Shown: positions 2,963-5,476 of the stretch, in pieces
How positions within the stretch are numbered: position 1 is the first letter of the stretch
Layout: the number at the start of each line of letters is the position of its first letter
Assembly (NCBI GenBank): GCA_021784635.1
Contig: JAJYHS010000084.1
Coordinates: forward strand, 1-5,803
Source: a bacterium
GTDB taxonomy: Bacteria; Bdellovibrionota; Bdellovibrionia; Bdellovibrionales; UBA1609
Direction of reading: 5' to 3'
DNA length: 5,803 nucleotides
The notes under the pieces: model-generated
Database searches by the model: none
What the model was told of the DNA's origin: nothing
Seen by the model: only the letters and a program-made list of their open reading frames with translations
Position numbers and translations under genes: made by a program

Positions 2963-3082
2963 TTAAACCCAACTGCGTTCGGGGCAACCATTGGCGGCGC
3001 TTTTGCCTTCACGGGCAAGAGTCTCGCGTGTTTTATTGCCCGAAACATTCTTTGGTTTGCGGACTTTTTTAATGTGTTTCAT
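2963..3082 (-). CDS. Small 39-aa peptide, candidate RiPP precursor for the adjacent radical SAM maturase
   Basis: The 39-codon gene starts at the ATG at 3082, preceded at 5 nt by a strong AAAAGGAG, and ends in TAA at 2965-2963. Its first 14 nt overlap the last codons and stop of the radical SAM gene in another frame, so translation is probably coupled. The peptide is strongly basic at the N-terminus (MKHIKKVRKPK), has a middle part with a possible helix (TRETLAREGK, 18-27) and ends in NGCPERSWV with a single Cys33 and a single Trp38. It has no signal peptide, membrane segment or double-glycine leader site. Known radical SAM/SPASM peptide maturases are often encoded beside precursors of this size, and residues of the C-terminal core are then cross-linked or cleaved. 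I do not recognise the sequence as a named RiPP family. That it is translated is likely; that it is the enzyme's substrate is inferred from position and size. It could instead be an unmodified small protein. Confidence 0.7.
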   Translation of the reverse strand: MKHIKKVRKPKNVSGNKTRETLAREGKSAANGCPERSWV

Positions 3083-4403
3083 GTAAACTCCTTTTGTAGT
3101 ACCAAATCGCGAGCGCCGCGATCTGGCGGGTTCGATGACAAAAATTTGGATCTTTTTCGTGACGGTTACCTGAAAATGATTTGTGTACAGCCATGCAACC
3201 CCCGCCGCATAAATGGCGTGCCCAGCAGGTTTGGCAGTGATTGAGTTCGATGAGCGTTGAGCCATAATGTTCAAGGTGCGGTTTTGACAAATCGGTGAGA
3301 TGGCCGATTTTTTCGGTTTCGTCGTTCATAAACCAATTGCAAACATAAAGGTCAGCGCGAGTATCGGATTGAATAAGCGATTTGCCCGCTCCGCAGTAAT
3401 TATGCTGGCGCGTTTGACTCTCCAATCTCGTCAGCGGCCGTCTAAACTGTTTGATTTTTACAAGCCCTGATAGCCCGTCGCGCGCGTAGAGCTTCGCGGC
3501 CGTTTTTTTCAATTCTTCAAGATAGCGGTTCGAAATTTCAAAGGCTGTTTCGGAGCGGTCGTTGTTTGAAAAGTTAAAATTATAGCGGTCAAAATCAAGA
3601 TGAAGCGATTCGAGATAATCAAACGCCCGCTCGACTCGCGTATTGTGGGCGCCAAAAACGCAATTGACCGCGAGCGTACCAAGTTGATTCCGTACGGCAC
3701 GTAGTTGTTCGAGTCCGCGAACGGTGAGCTCAGTTGAGCCATAACCGTTTTTTGCCTTTACCGGGCGGGTGAGGTCGTTTACTTCAGGATCACCGTCAAT
3801 GCTAACTGTGACGTGAAATCGATACCGCGCTAACATCTCCGCCGATTCGCGTGTAATGAGCGTCCCATTGGTATTAATGGCAAAATGCAAATCAATGTCT
3901 CTTCCGCTTACCATCAATTGAGCGTAGCGGCACAGCGACTCAATGACGCGCGGATAGAGCAGAGGTTCGCCTCCACAAAACTCAATTTCAAACGATTTGC
4001 TATCTTTGAGATTGGACAAAAAATACGAGATTTGTTGTTCGGCCTTATGCGTGTCGATCTTTGTGATTTTAGAACCGTAAGTTCCGGCACTTTCGTTCTT
4101 GCCATCGAAGTCGACGGCTGCGCAATAGGTACATTTTAAATTGCATATTTGCGCCACGTTAAGAAGCAGCGTACTTATTTCTTGCGACGAAGCGATGTCG
4201 GTTGTATCCGGAGAATTTTCTTTGTGCCACACCTCGAGTTCAGCCCTGATTTCGCTGTCTTTTTGAAGCGTGATTTCGTTTTCAAGCGCCTGCCAAACTT
4301 TTTCACTCAGTTCGGCAACTTCTAAGTTGCGCGCATGAAAACCCAATACTTCGCCGTTTTCAGCGCGTGTTGCGAGAATGTCTTTGTAGCGGCGAAATTG
4401 CAT
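3069..4403 (-). CDS. Radical SAM/SPASM domain protein, probable peptide maturase
   Basis: Cytoplasmic iron-sulfur enzyme of 444 aa from the ATG at 4403. The radical SAM cluster motif CNLKCTYC uses C87, C91 and C94; GGEP at 144-147 is the usual SAM-binding loop, followed by INTNGT at 176-181 and VSIDGD at 200-205. The C-terminal SPASM region has C337, C355, then C390-x2-C393-x5-C399-x3-C403 and C422, enough to hold two auxiliary 4Fe-4S clusters as in anaerobic sulfatase-maturase-like and peptide-modifying enzymes. Residues 1-45, before the radical SAM core, look like a small winged-helix, PqqD-like peptide recognition element (inferred from pattern and position only). A TTG at 4445 would add 14 residues, but it has no ribosome binding site and would lie close to the predicted transcript start; AGAGGG 7 nt before 4403 favours the ATG. 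It overlaps the 39-aa peptide gene by 14 nt, and that peptide is its best candidate substrate. The family is certain; the reaction (thioether, carbon-carbon link, epimerisation or other) cannot be read from sequence. Confidence 0.93.
   Translation of the reverse strand: MQFRRYKDILATRAENGEVLGFHARNLEVAELSEKVWQALENEITLQKDSEIRAELEVWHKENSPDTTDIASSQEISTLLLNVAQICNLKCTYCAAVDFDGKNESAGTYGSKITKIDTHKAEQQISYFLSNLKDSKSFEIEFCGGEPLLYPRVIESLCRYAQLMVSGRDIDLHFAINTNGTLITRESAEMLARYRFHVTVSIDGDPEVNDLTRPVKAKNGYGSTELTVRGLEQLRAVRNQLGTLAVNCVFGAHNTRVERAFDYLESLHLDFDRYNFNFSNNDRSETAFEISNRYLEELKKTAAKLYARDGLSGLVKIKQFRRPLTRLESQTRQHNYCGAGKSLIQSDTRADLYVCNWFMNDETEKIGHLTDLSKPHLEHYGSTLIELNHCQTCWARHLCGGGCMAVHKSFSGNRHEKDPNFCHRTRQIAALAIWYYKRSLHETH
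3088..3095 (-). promoter_or_regulatory. Strong ribosome binding site of the small peptide gene
   Basis: AAAAGGAG on the minus strand lies 5 nt before the ATG at 3082 and inside the 3' end of the radical SAM reading frame. It decides the start of the 39-aa peptide: the same frame is open further upstream to an ATG at 3274, but that part only shadows the radical SAM gene. The strength of the site fits a product needed in excess over the enzyme. Confidence 0.8.
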
Positions 4404-4471: not shown

Positions 4472-4487
4472 AGCAAATCACTTGCCA
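4472..4487 (-). promoter_or_regulatory. Sigma-54 (RpoN) -24/-12 promoter of the radical SAM-peptide-kinase-regulator unit
   Basis: The minus strand reads TGGCAAGTGATTTGCT. Against the known sigma-54 consensus TGGCACG-N4-TTGCW it differs only at the sixth base (A for C), and GG and GC are separated by the required 10 nt. Counting from the -12 C at 4473, the transcript would start near 4461, leaving a leader of about 57 nt before the ATG at 4403. The promoter lies in the only sizeable gap in front of four tightly packed genes, the last of which encodes a sigma-54 activator. Recognition of the motif is direct; use in vivo is inferred. Confidence 0.8.
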
Positions 4488-4518: not shown

Positions 4519-4550
4519 GACAATAAGTGTCACTTTGACACCAGATTGTC
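4519..4550. promoter_or_regulatory. Nested inverted repeat, candidate enhancer/operator for a sigma-54 activator
   Basis: Reading the plus strand: GACAAT, 2 nt, GTGTCA, CTT, TGACAC, 3 nt, ATTGTC. Both inner (6-bp) and outer (6-bp) arms are perfectly complementary, with a one-base asymmetry between them. The right outer arm also belongs to a further small palindrome, GATTG-T-CAATC (4544-4554). The centre is about 73 bp upstream of the predicted sigma-54 transcript start, a position typical for binding of NtrC-type activator dimers. The inner core TGTCA-N3-TGACA has the usual form of a dimer site. The transcript of the upstream gene could also fold this into a hairpin, but it is followed by TTATTG rather than a T-run, so a terminator is less likely. 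Confidence 0.65.
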
Positions 4551-4582: not shown

Positions 4583-5476
4583 TTAAAGTTTTTGATAAAT
4601 GAGTACGAATTCAGATGTTGCGGTAGGAGCGTCAACCGGCACTGTTTTGATGTCAAAGGTCAACGTGGCGTTGTTGGGTTGCCGCGCAGTTAGCGTTGTA
4701 TTTTCAAGTGTTGTACCGTTTAGCCAAACGAAATGGAGGTGACTGTTTTGGTTGGCCGGAGGTTTCGCAACAGGCGCAGTGGTTTGCGGCATTGGCCCCA
4801 CAAAATCGGCGCTGGCGGCTGAAATTTGAGGCTGTGGTTTTTGAGCTTTCGGTTTCGACATGAGCCACGCGAGTGGGTTAAATGCCGTTGGCGTTACCGT
4901 TGAAAGATCGTACTCACCCTCAGGAGTTCGAAAATCAGACATGGGTATAAGACGGTCGGGTTTGAGATAAAAGTTATAAACGACTTGTGCATCGGGTATG
5001 GCGGCGTTTTTAATAAATCCTTTGTTACCTTCAAACAGTCGTGGAATAACAAGGCTTGAAGTCATGTTTTCTTCGGCAATATTGATGGGACTCGTATACT
5101 CAGTCACGACACTTTCGGGTTCACTGATTTCGGGGAGTGTATCTGTAAAGAGCACCTCAACGCTGTCGGTAATGTCTGTGACATGAGTCAAAATTTTAGT
5201 GAGCGCATATTTGCCGTTACCAAATGTTTTTTTAAAATTGAGATTTTTCCAAGCAAGCGCCGGCGAGTTGCCCGCCGCTTTTTTAATTTCGCGCTGAATG
5301 TCTTTGTGGCTTGCAAAACCACTGTTATCTACATTGCCGATGAGAGAGAGATCTTCAACATTGATATCGTCGGCTTTAGCCTTGGCGGTCAATAAAATGT
5401 TGGTTGCGCCAATAATGGCCAGCGCTGTAATAGCCGTGGCAATCAGATTCGAATTTCGTTGTGTAAATCGCTTCAT
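4583..5476 (-). CDS. Exported protein of unknown function
   Basis: 297 aa. The N-terminus is a Sec signal peptide: basic MKRFTQR, a hydrophobic core (LIATAITALAIIGA, about 11-24) and a likely signal peptidase I site A-K-A at 33-35 before DD. The mature part begins acidic and has three sections: an N-terminal part (36-200) rich in Asp, Thr and Ser with a KDIQREIKKAAGN stretch (58-70); a Pro/Ala/Gln-rich linker (about 207-243, KPKAQKPQPQ and PVAKPPANQ); and a C-terminal segment of alternating hydrophobic residues (245-297) that looks like beta strands. It has no cysteine, so no lipobox and no disulfide. I do not recognise the family. The start lacks a ribosome binding site, but the signal peptide supports the ATG at 5476. 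It is followed by 179 nt before the radical SAM gene, which has its own promoter, so it is probably a separate unit; a periplasmic location near the CHASE2 sensor would be possible but is speculation. Confidence 0.8.
   Translation of the reverse strand: MKRFTQRNSNLIATAITALAIIGATNILLTAKAKADDINVEDLSLIGNVDNSGFASHKDIQREIKKAAGNSPALAWKNLNFKKTFGNGKYALTKILTHVTDITDSVEVLFTDTLPEISEPESVVTEYTSPINIAEENMTSSLVIPRLFEGNKGFIKNAAIPDAQVVYNFYLKPDRLIPMSDFRTPEGEYDLSTVTPTAFNPLAWLMSKPKAQKPQPQISAASADFVGPMPQTTAPVAKPPANQNSHLHFVWLNGTTLENTTLTARQPNNATLTFDIKTVPVDAPTATSEFVLIYQKL

Follow-up and report, generated by a model that had tools for sequence, protein, structure and literature searches.

In the agrBDCA and comQXPA loci, a maturase gene is followed by the genes for a precursor, a histidine kinase and a regulator, and the precursor is a short peptide with one key residue. 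Radical SAM enzymes with a SPASM domain include the CteB/SCIFF maturase, the PapB-type maturases and anSME. PapA-type precursors carry repeated C-x3-D motifs, and in anSME an Asp after a cysteine of auxiliary cluster I (Aux I) acts as general base. SCIFF precursors have six cysteines in 45 residues according to two reports (PMC8692599; PMC8326336), and a third gives anSME eight SPASM cysteines and two full clusters (PMC5682303). We analysed a 5,803-nt stretch of DNA (the window; contig JAJYHS010000084.1 of assembly GCA_021784635.1, Bdellovibrionales) in which a radical SAM/SPASM enzyme gene and an overlapping 39-codon gene very probably form a maturase-precursor system.

Enzyme and peptide genes of the window

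The enzyme gene (3069-4403, minus strand) encodes 444 aa from the ATG at 4403. A sequence-only reading of the window had noted an intact radical SAM core and seven SPASM-region cysteines, and both were borne out: the radical SAM motif is C87-x3-C91-x2-C94, the SPASM domain contains C337, C355, C390, C393, C399, C403 and C422, and all 3 + 7 cysteines are invariant in alignments of 38 and 79 sequences. The Pfam Radical_SAM model matches with 54.6 bits (cut-off 29.5). The top NCBIfam match is the PapB-type family NF047865 (177.5 bits, residues 76-414), below its cut-off of 340; the models for the SCIFF maturase (128.9 bits, cut-off 425) and anSME (98.8 bits, cut-off 349.45) likewise match below cut-off. 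Thioether-forming CteB (PDB 5wgg, 5why) is both the best PDB sequence match (E 2.8e-25) and nearest to the predicted fold, sharing the overall arrangement of N-terminal domain, radical SAM core and SPASM domain. In the aligned part, CteB and the window enzyme are also alike in having only two cysteines before the CX2C block. The N-terminal domain (aa 1-61, predicted) shows a weak predicted likeness to leader-binding RRE domains.

The peptide gene (2963-3082, minus strand) encodes 39 aa, with an HIKK motif at the N-terminus and Cys-Pro-Glu at the C-terminus. The C-terminal sequence is CPERSWV, and a shorter B. bacteriovorus version of the peptide ends in GEGCIPVR. As the sequence-only reading had described, it overlaps the enzyme gene by 14 nt (3069-3082), its ATG lying within the enzyme's final codons, and has a strong ribosome-binding site, AAAAGGAG (3088-3095, minus strand), 5 nt before that ATG.

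Distribution of the enzyme and the peptide

Enzyme orthologues (E 1.5e-28 or better; next match 5.3e-11) were found in 44 of 98 genomes searched, ranging from the window's genus to its order. The sequence-only reading had raised the question of whether the peptide always accompanies the enzyme. Behind the enzyme gene, all 43 assessable genomes encode a short peptide whose N-terminus is HIKK-like and which has a Cys near the C-terminus (loci L001-L030, L050-L061 and L063; L062, L064 and L065, whose genes are cut by contig ends, stand outside the assessment). Among the best 80 of 488 named-species relatives (595 stretches), at least 44 loci had an enzyme with ≥34% identity (L066-L106, L109, L113 and L126), and identity was at most 31% in the remaining 36. 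This named set, which consists mostly of the same species as the first, gave the same result, with the peptide present in 43/43 assessable loci (L100 stands outside the assessment). The titles of the 44 loci are Bdellovibrio-type names or Bdellovibrionota, except for L094 ('bacterium'), L109 (Oligoflexia) and L093. The last (CALQIT020000002.1) is a contig filed under a Streptomyces griseus metagenome-assembled genome; it has a Bdellovibrio-type cassette and is probably from a mislabelled bin.

The kinase encoded downstream is more widely spread than the enzyme, since 83/98 genomes gave some hit at 1e-5 with the CHASE2 part of the kinase. Thirty-two genomes have a strong CHASE2 match without the enzyme. 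We examined 31 of these loci (G068 was left out), and in none was the peptide found in the 700 nt that precede the kinase; flags in L151, L156 and L163 were judged by eye to be chance. The co-occurrence of peptide and enzyme (43/43 vs 0/31) has a Fisher p-value of 1.5e-21, a figure that ignores kinship. A less strict pattern, which took no account of ribosome sites, matched 84/86 enzyme-bearing loci (missing L055 and L090, both peptide-bearing) vs 2/31 enzyme-less loci. These two matches (L147 and L154) were also judged chance by eye, and neither recurs in the nearest relative.

On a quick tree of 71 kinases (with long branches for L098, L105 and L169), enzyme presence switches six times, and at least four of these switches are forced by the starred branches. 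Four enzyme-bearing loci with a short or missing kinase were left off this tree, as was L166, whose kinase is broken. In G002, an enzyme-less genome of the window's genus, the kinase gene comes directly after a relative of the 297-aa gene that lies upstream of the window enzyme. The enzyme and peptide were gained or lost jointly while the kinase was retained, and the peptide is therefore tied to the enzyme. Co-occurrence with the enzyme, together with the selection described below, rules out a chance open reading frame.

Sequence conservation and selection of the peptide

We tabulated 65 distinct peptides of 27-78 aa. One cysteine is present in 62/65 and two are present in 3/65, with the contexts C-x-P (58), CPE (6; four from the window's genus and two others) and CEIV (1). 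The C-x-P counts are not blind, because the table was selected for a Cys with a Pro no more than three residues behind it (a requirement waived for L023) and for an IKK-like motif. The same peptides appear in a listing of L001-L030 that was selected only on a ribosome-site-like pattern and length; the named-species search was selected on a ribosome-site-like pattern and a Cys. Five spurious intra-kinase frames were left out (second rows of L006, L055, L056, L088 and L090), and the peptides of L059 and L084 were counted from separate listings or reading. Gly occurs at position -1 of the Cys in 40/65 peptides and at -3 likewise in 40/65.

In an alignment of 30 peptides, the C-terminal Cys is the sole invariant residue, followed in degree of conservation by position +2 from it, where Pro is usual. 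The sequence-only reading had asked whether the C-terminus is the conserved part of the peptide. The invariant Cys agrees with this, but conservation extends to the N-terminal HIKK motif. The Trp that it stressed as a feature of the peptide did not hold up, with Trp occurring in only 2/65 peptides. Conservation of the frame, on which its proposal also hung, was found throughout: pooled pN/pS was 0.28 in a Bdellovibrio group, 0.38 in the window's genus and between 0.19 and 0.58 in five further groups (uncorrected proportions; in many pairs, the synonymous sites are close to saturation). By these ratios, the peptide is under purifying selection in all seven groups.

The sequence-only reading could name no precursor family for the peptide, and the window peptide indeed matched no Pfam or NCBIfam family at 1e-3. 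When 30 peptides were compared with NCBIfam at E 0.1, only two single matches were found, chryseobasin (E 0.014) and crocagin (0.073), both of which were taken as chance. A homologue search with 22 peptides gave 74 proteins at E ≤10, the weakest of which are perhaps chance. The homologues named by source are labelled hypothetical or uncharacterized, including Bdt_3279 of B. bacteriovorus Tiberius. One locus, L082 (3473-3704), has two precursor genes in tandem, of 30 and 38 aa, after a single enzyme gene.

The predicted RRE-like domain of the enzyme would bind the HIKK-type leader, and the peptide would be the substrate of the adjacent enzyme, which likely modifies it. In the open-access literature searched on Bdellovibrio radical SAM proteins, ribosomally synthesized and post-translationally modified peptides, CHASE2 and sigma-54, we found among the papers listed no description of a radical SAM-modified peptide of Bdellovibrio or of this enzyme-peptide pair. 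The module is compact, with a precursor of ~38 aa, and its presence in 44/98 genomes makes it a test case for a possible new single-Cys peptide modification.

Predicted operon context and promoter

The sequence-only reading was confined to the enzyme and the peptide; to these we add a conserved downstream CHASE2 kinase and NtrC-type regulator, and a sigma-54-type promoter. On the minus strand of the window, the order is 297-aa gene (4583-5476), promoter region, enzyme, peptide, CHASE2 sensor histidine kinase (1085-2929, starting 33 nt past the peptide stop) and NtrC-type sigma-54 response regulator (2-1066, continuing beyond the window edge). We surveyed gene order in 45 loci (the 44 named loci and the window). 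The CHASE2 kinase gene lies downstream in 44/44 loci where the contig continues, at a median of 13 nt from peptide stop to kinase start (43 loci). An NtrC-type regulator gene comes next within 400 nt in 35/40 assessable loci and farther away in one more, so that the order maturase-precursor-kinase-regulator is found in 36/40.

The sigma-54-type site in the window, TGGCAAGTGATTTGCT (4472-4487, minus strand), agrees with the sigma-54 consensus at 10/11 positions and lies 84 nt before the enzyme ATG. A site scoring at least 9/11 is found upstream of the enzyme in 30/42 loci with 250 nt of upstream DNA vs 4.5% of 1176 control pieces, which were drawn anywhere in the same loci and so are mostly coding DNA. 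The mean best score was 8.98 vs 7.32 in mononucleotide shuffles of the same upstream DNA (41 loci). Such a site also precedes the kinase in 17/31 enzyme-less loci.

A perfect palindrome, GTGTCA-N3-TGACAC (4527-4541, no strand), is a predicted enhancer site of the NtrC-type regulator. It occurs as a single copy, always at this locus, in each of six genomes of the window's genus, two of them enzyme-less; completeness is just 76-78% for three of these genomes (the window genome is 76% complete). With up to two mismatches, the palindrome is found upstream of the kinase in 23/31 enzyme-less loci (control, 0.6% of 1060 pieces) vs upstream of the enzyme in only 7/41 named loci, and it is therefore confined to part of the order. 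As to a wider regulon read from this palindrome, one-mismatch sites are near control level in three of four genomes (G000, G002 and G005); the exception is G003, with 9 vs 0. Four Bdellovibrio loci (L092, L074, L076 and L077) have in common another element, GAAATAGTTTC, ~147 nt upstream of the enzyme. This is possibly the regulator's site in these loci, replacing GTGTCA-N3-TGACAC.

The simplest picture drawn from these sequences is an autoregulated sigma-54 two-component operon, which the enzyme-peptide pair leads in a subset of lineages. The genes for enzyme, peptide, kinase and regulator would form a single transcript, and the regulator would activate its own operon through the palindrome.

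Possible relation of the peptide to the two-component system

We consider a functional link of some kind between the peptide pair and the two-component system somewhat more probable than none. The modified peptide may feed back on the system or may be its output. Our best explanation leaves this direction open: a leader-guided maturase and a Cys-thioether peptide would be an add-on to the autoregulated CHASE2/NtrC operon. This has about an even chance of being right, because it is bounded by its thioether step.

If the peptide is an output, the system senses something else and turns on its own operon, the product being an effector peptide or cofactor in the cytoplasm or periplasm. The promoter-like site preceding the enzyme gene, the sole perfect palindrome of each of six genomes belonging to this operon, and the occurrence of kinase and regulator without the enzyme-peptide pair are all consistent with this. 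However, the same operon in enzyme-less genomes has no such output, and the regulator may have other targets with imperfect sites, as the one-mismatch palindromes of G003 suggest. On balance, we regard an output role as a reasonable possibility, short of even.

It is less likely that the modified peptide acts as an autoinducer, secreted or periplasmic, that the adjacent kinase senses through its CHASE2 domain. The locus would then be a Gram-negative analogue of agrBDCA and comQXPA. The locus shares with these systems the order of maturase, precursor, histidine kinase and regulator, as well as a short peptide with one key residue, and its promoter and palindrome are compatible with a positive loop. 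In addition, a clostridial ranthipeptide mutant is reported to have altered expression of agr and sporulation genes (PMC8102284). Unlike agr and com, the locus has a radical SAM maturase, a CHASE2 sensor kinase and a regulator of the sigma-54-dependent type, and its kinase and regulator persist in genomes without the peptide. Several further observations weigh against direct sensing. We sought a sensor-domain signature and found that 0/283 CHASE2 columns are conserved solely in enzyme-bearing genomes; at equal kinase identity, CHASE2 identity among enzyme-bearing loci was slightly higher in 2/4 shared bins and lower in 2/4. A signal peptide is not apparent by eye, and the peptide core is not hypervariable within Bdellovibrio. 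Neither an export gene nor another transporter was found among the neighbour families scanned, which did not include four families (≥3 loci), the neighbours that did not cluster or genes elsewhere in the genome.

The fullest form of the autoinducer reading, in which a one-Cys cyclic peptide is read by the CHASE2 kinase and the sigma-54 regulator drives the same operon, is correspondingly unlikely. If true, this self-amplifying circuit would be a Gram-negative counterpart of agr and com resting on radical chemistry. We know of no ligands of CHASE2 domains, and the locus links a likely modified peptide to such a sensor. Were the peptide to feed the kinase, the result would be a modified-peptide signalling loop in Gram-negative relatives of predatory bacteria. 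Taken together, the data suggest an undescribed modified peptide, perhaps acting in the bacterium's own signalling.

Chemistry of the proposed modification

The enzyme would oxidise the C-terminal Cys of the peptide, and the most likely product is a thioether from this Cys to a nearby residue, a chemistry that we judge evenly balanced between right and wrong. The resemblance to CteB points to it, and the precursors differ from those of the described thioether systems. Unlike SCIFF precursors, most peptides here carry one Cys, and the repeated C-x3-D motifs of the PapA type are absent. Nor do the peptides resemble the Cys-rich precursors with a repeated Cys-acceptor motif that mark ranthipeptides. 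A Trp-centred cyclophane or streptide-like crosslink was ruled out because Trp is as rare as stated above and any F, W or Y is present in only 20/65 peptides.

A sulfatase-maturase-like oxidase that turns the peptide Cys into formylglycine is improbable. Many peptides from Bdellovibrio members end in C-x-P-x-R/K, which is the sulfatase motif, but 45/65 peptides are without a C-x-P-x-[RK] ending. The enzyme also differs from anSME in having seven SPASM cysteines, against the eight given in PMC5682303, the second auxiliary-cluster-I Cys being absent. The Asp that follows the Aux I Cys in anSME is replaced here: after Cys 355, the aligned orthologues have N, P or Q (L058 has V). Furthermore, the likely substrate here is a peptide of 27-78 residues.

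Alternatively, the peptide gene might be no more than a regulatory upstream frame of the kinase, and the enzyme might act on another target. The position just before the kinase start would fit this, but we consider it very improbable: the sequence itself is conserved and not just the frame, and no such peptide was found in the enzyme-less loci that retain the kinase.

Neighbouring genes and related loci

The 297-aa protein encoded upstream in the window looks exported by eye and matches nothing in Pfam or NCBIfam. In the loci compared, members of its family lie upstream only in the window's genus (four enzyme-bearing loci and G002). Elsewhere the upstream neighbours differ by lineage: a transglycosylase/transpeptidase (family F4), a metallo-beta-lactamase fold (F6), Cpn10 (F8), DUF507 (F9), a matrixin (F12) and a response regulator with an HD domain (F15). 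Families F7, F10 and F13 had no Pfam match, and F5 is isoleucyl-tRNA synthetase by eye; the Pfam scan covered neighbours other than F5, F11, F14, F16 and unclustered reading frames. In L091, L094 and L113, a gene for a second kinase-family protein (~605 aa) lies directly before the enzyme gene. Pfam gives the ATPase domain alone for the L113 copy, the only one scanned.

Several enzyme-less loci have features of their own. In L166 (G001:C36), from a congener that has neither enzyme nor peptide, the kinase gene is in pieces and the upstream palindrome is intact. L170, L171 and L172 (G052, G062 and G049; families f7/f4) have a promoter-like site ~190-215 nt before the kinase. Between this site and the kinase (up to ~220 nt upstream) lies a small basic frame that has no Cys when read from its ATG, which is an internal one in L170 and L171. 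It is possibly an unmodified counterpart of the peptide, in a sample where family f7 comprises three genomes only. Finally, L164 (G092, of the Bdellovibrio-bearing family f8) has a 42-aa frame that is rich in Gly and Asn, repeats KPPF stretches and comes with a GAGGAG site; the frame sits between two kinase-family genes, ~180 nt upstream of the second.
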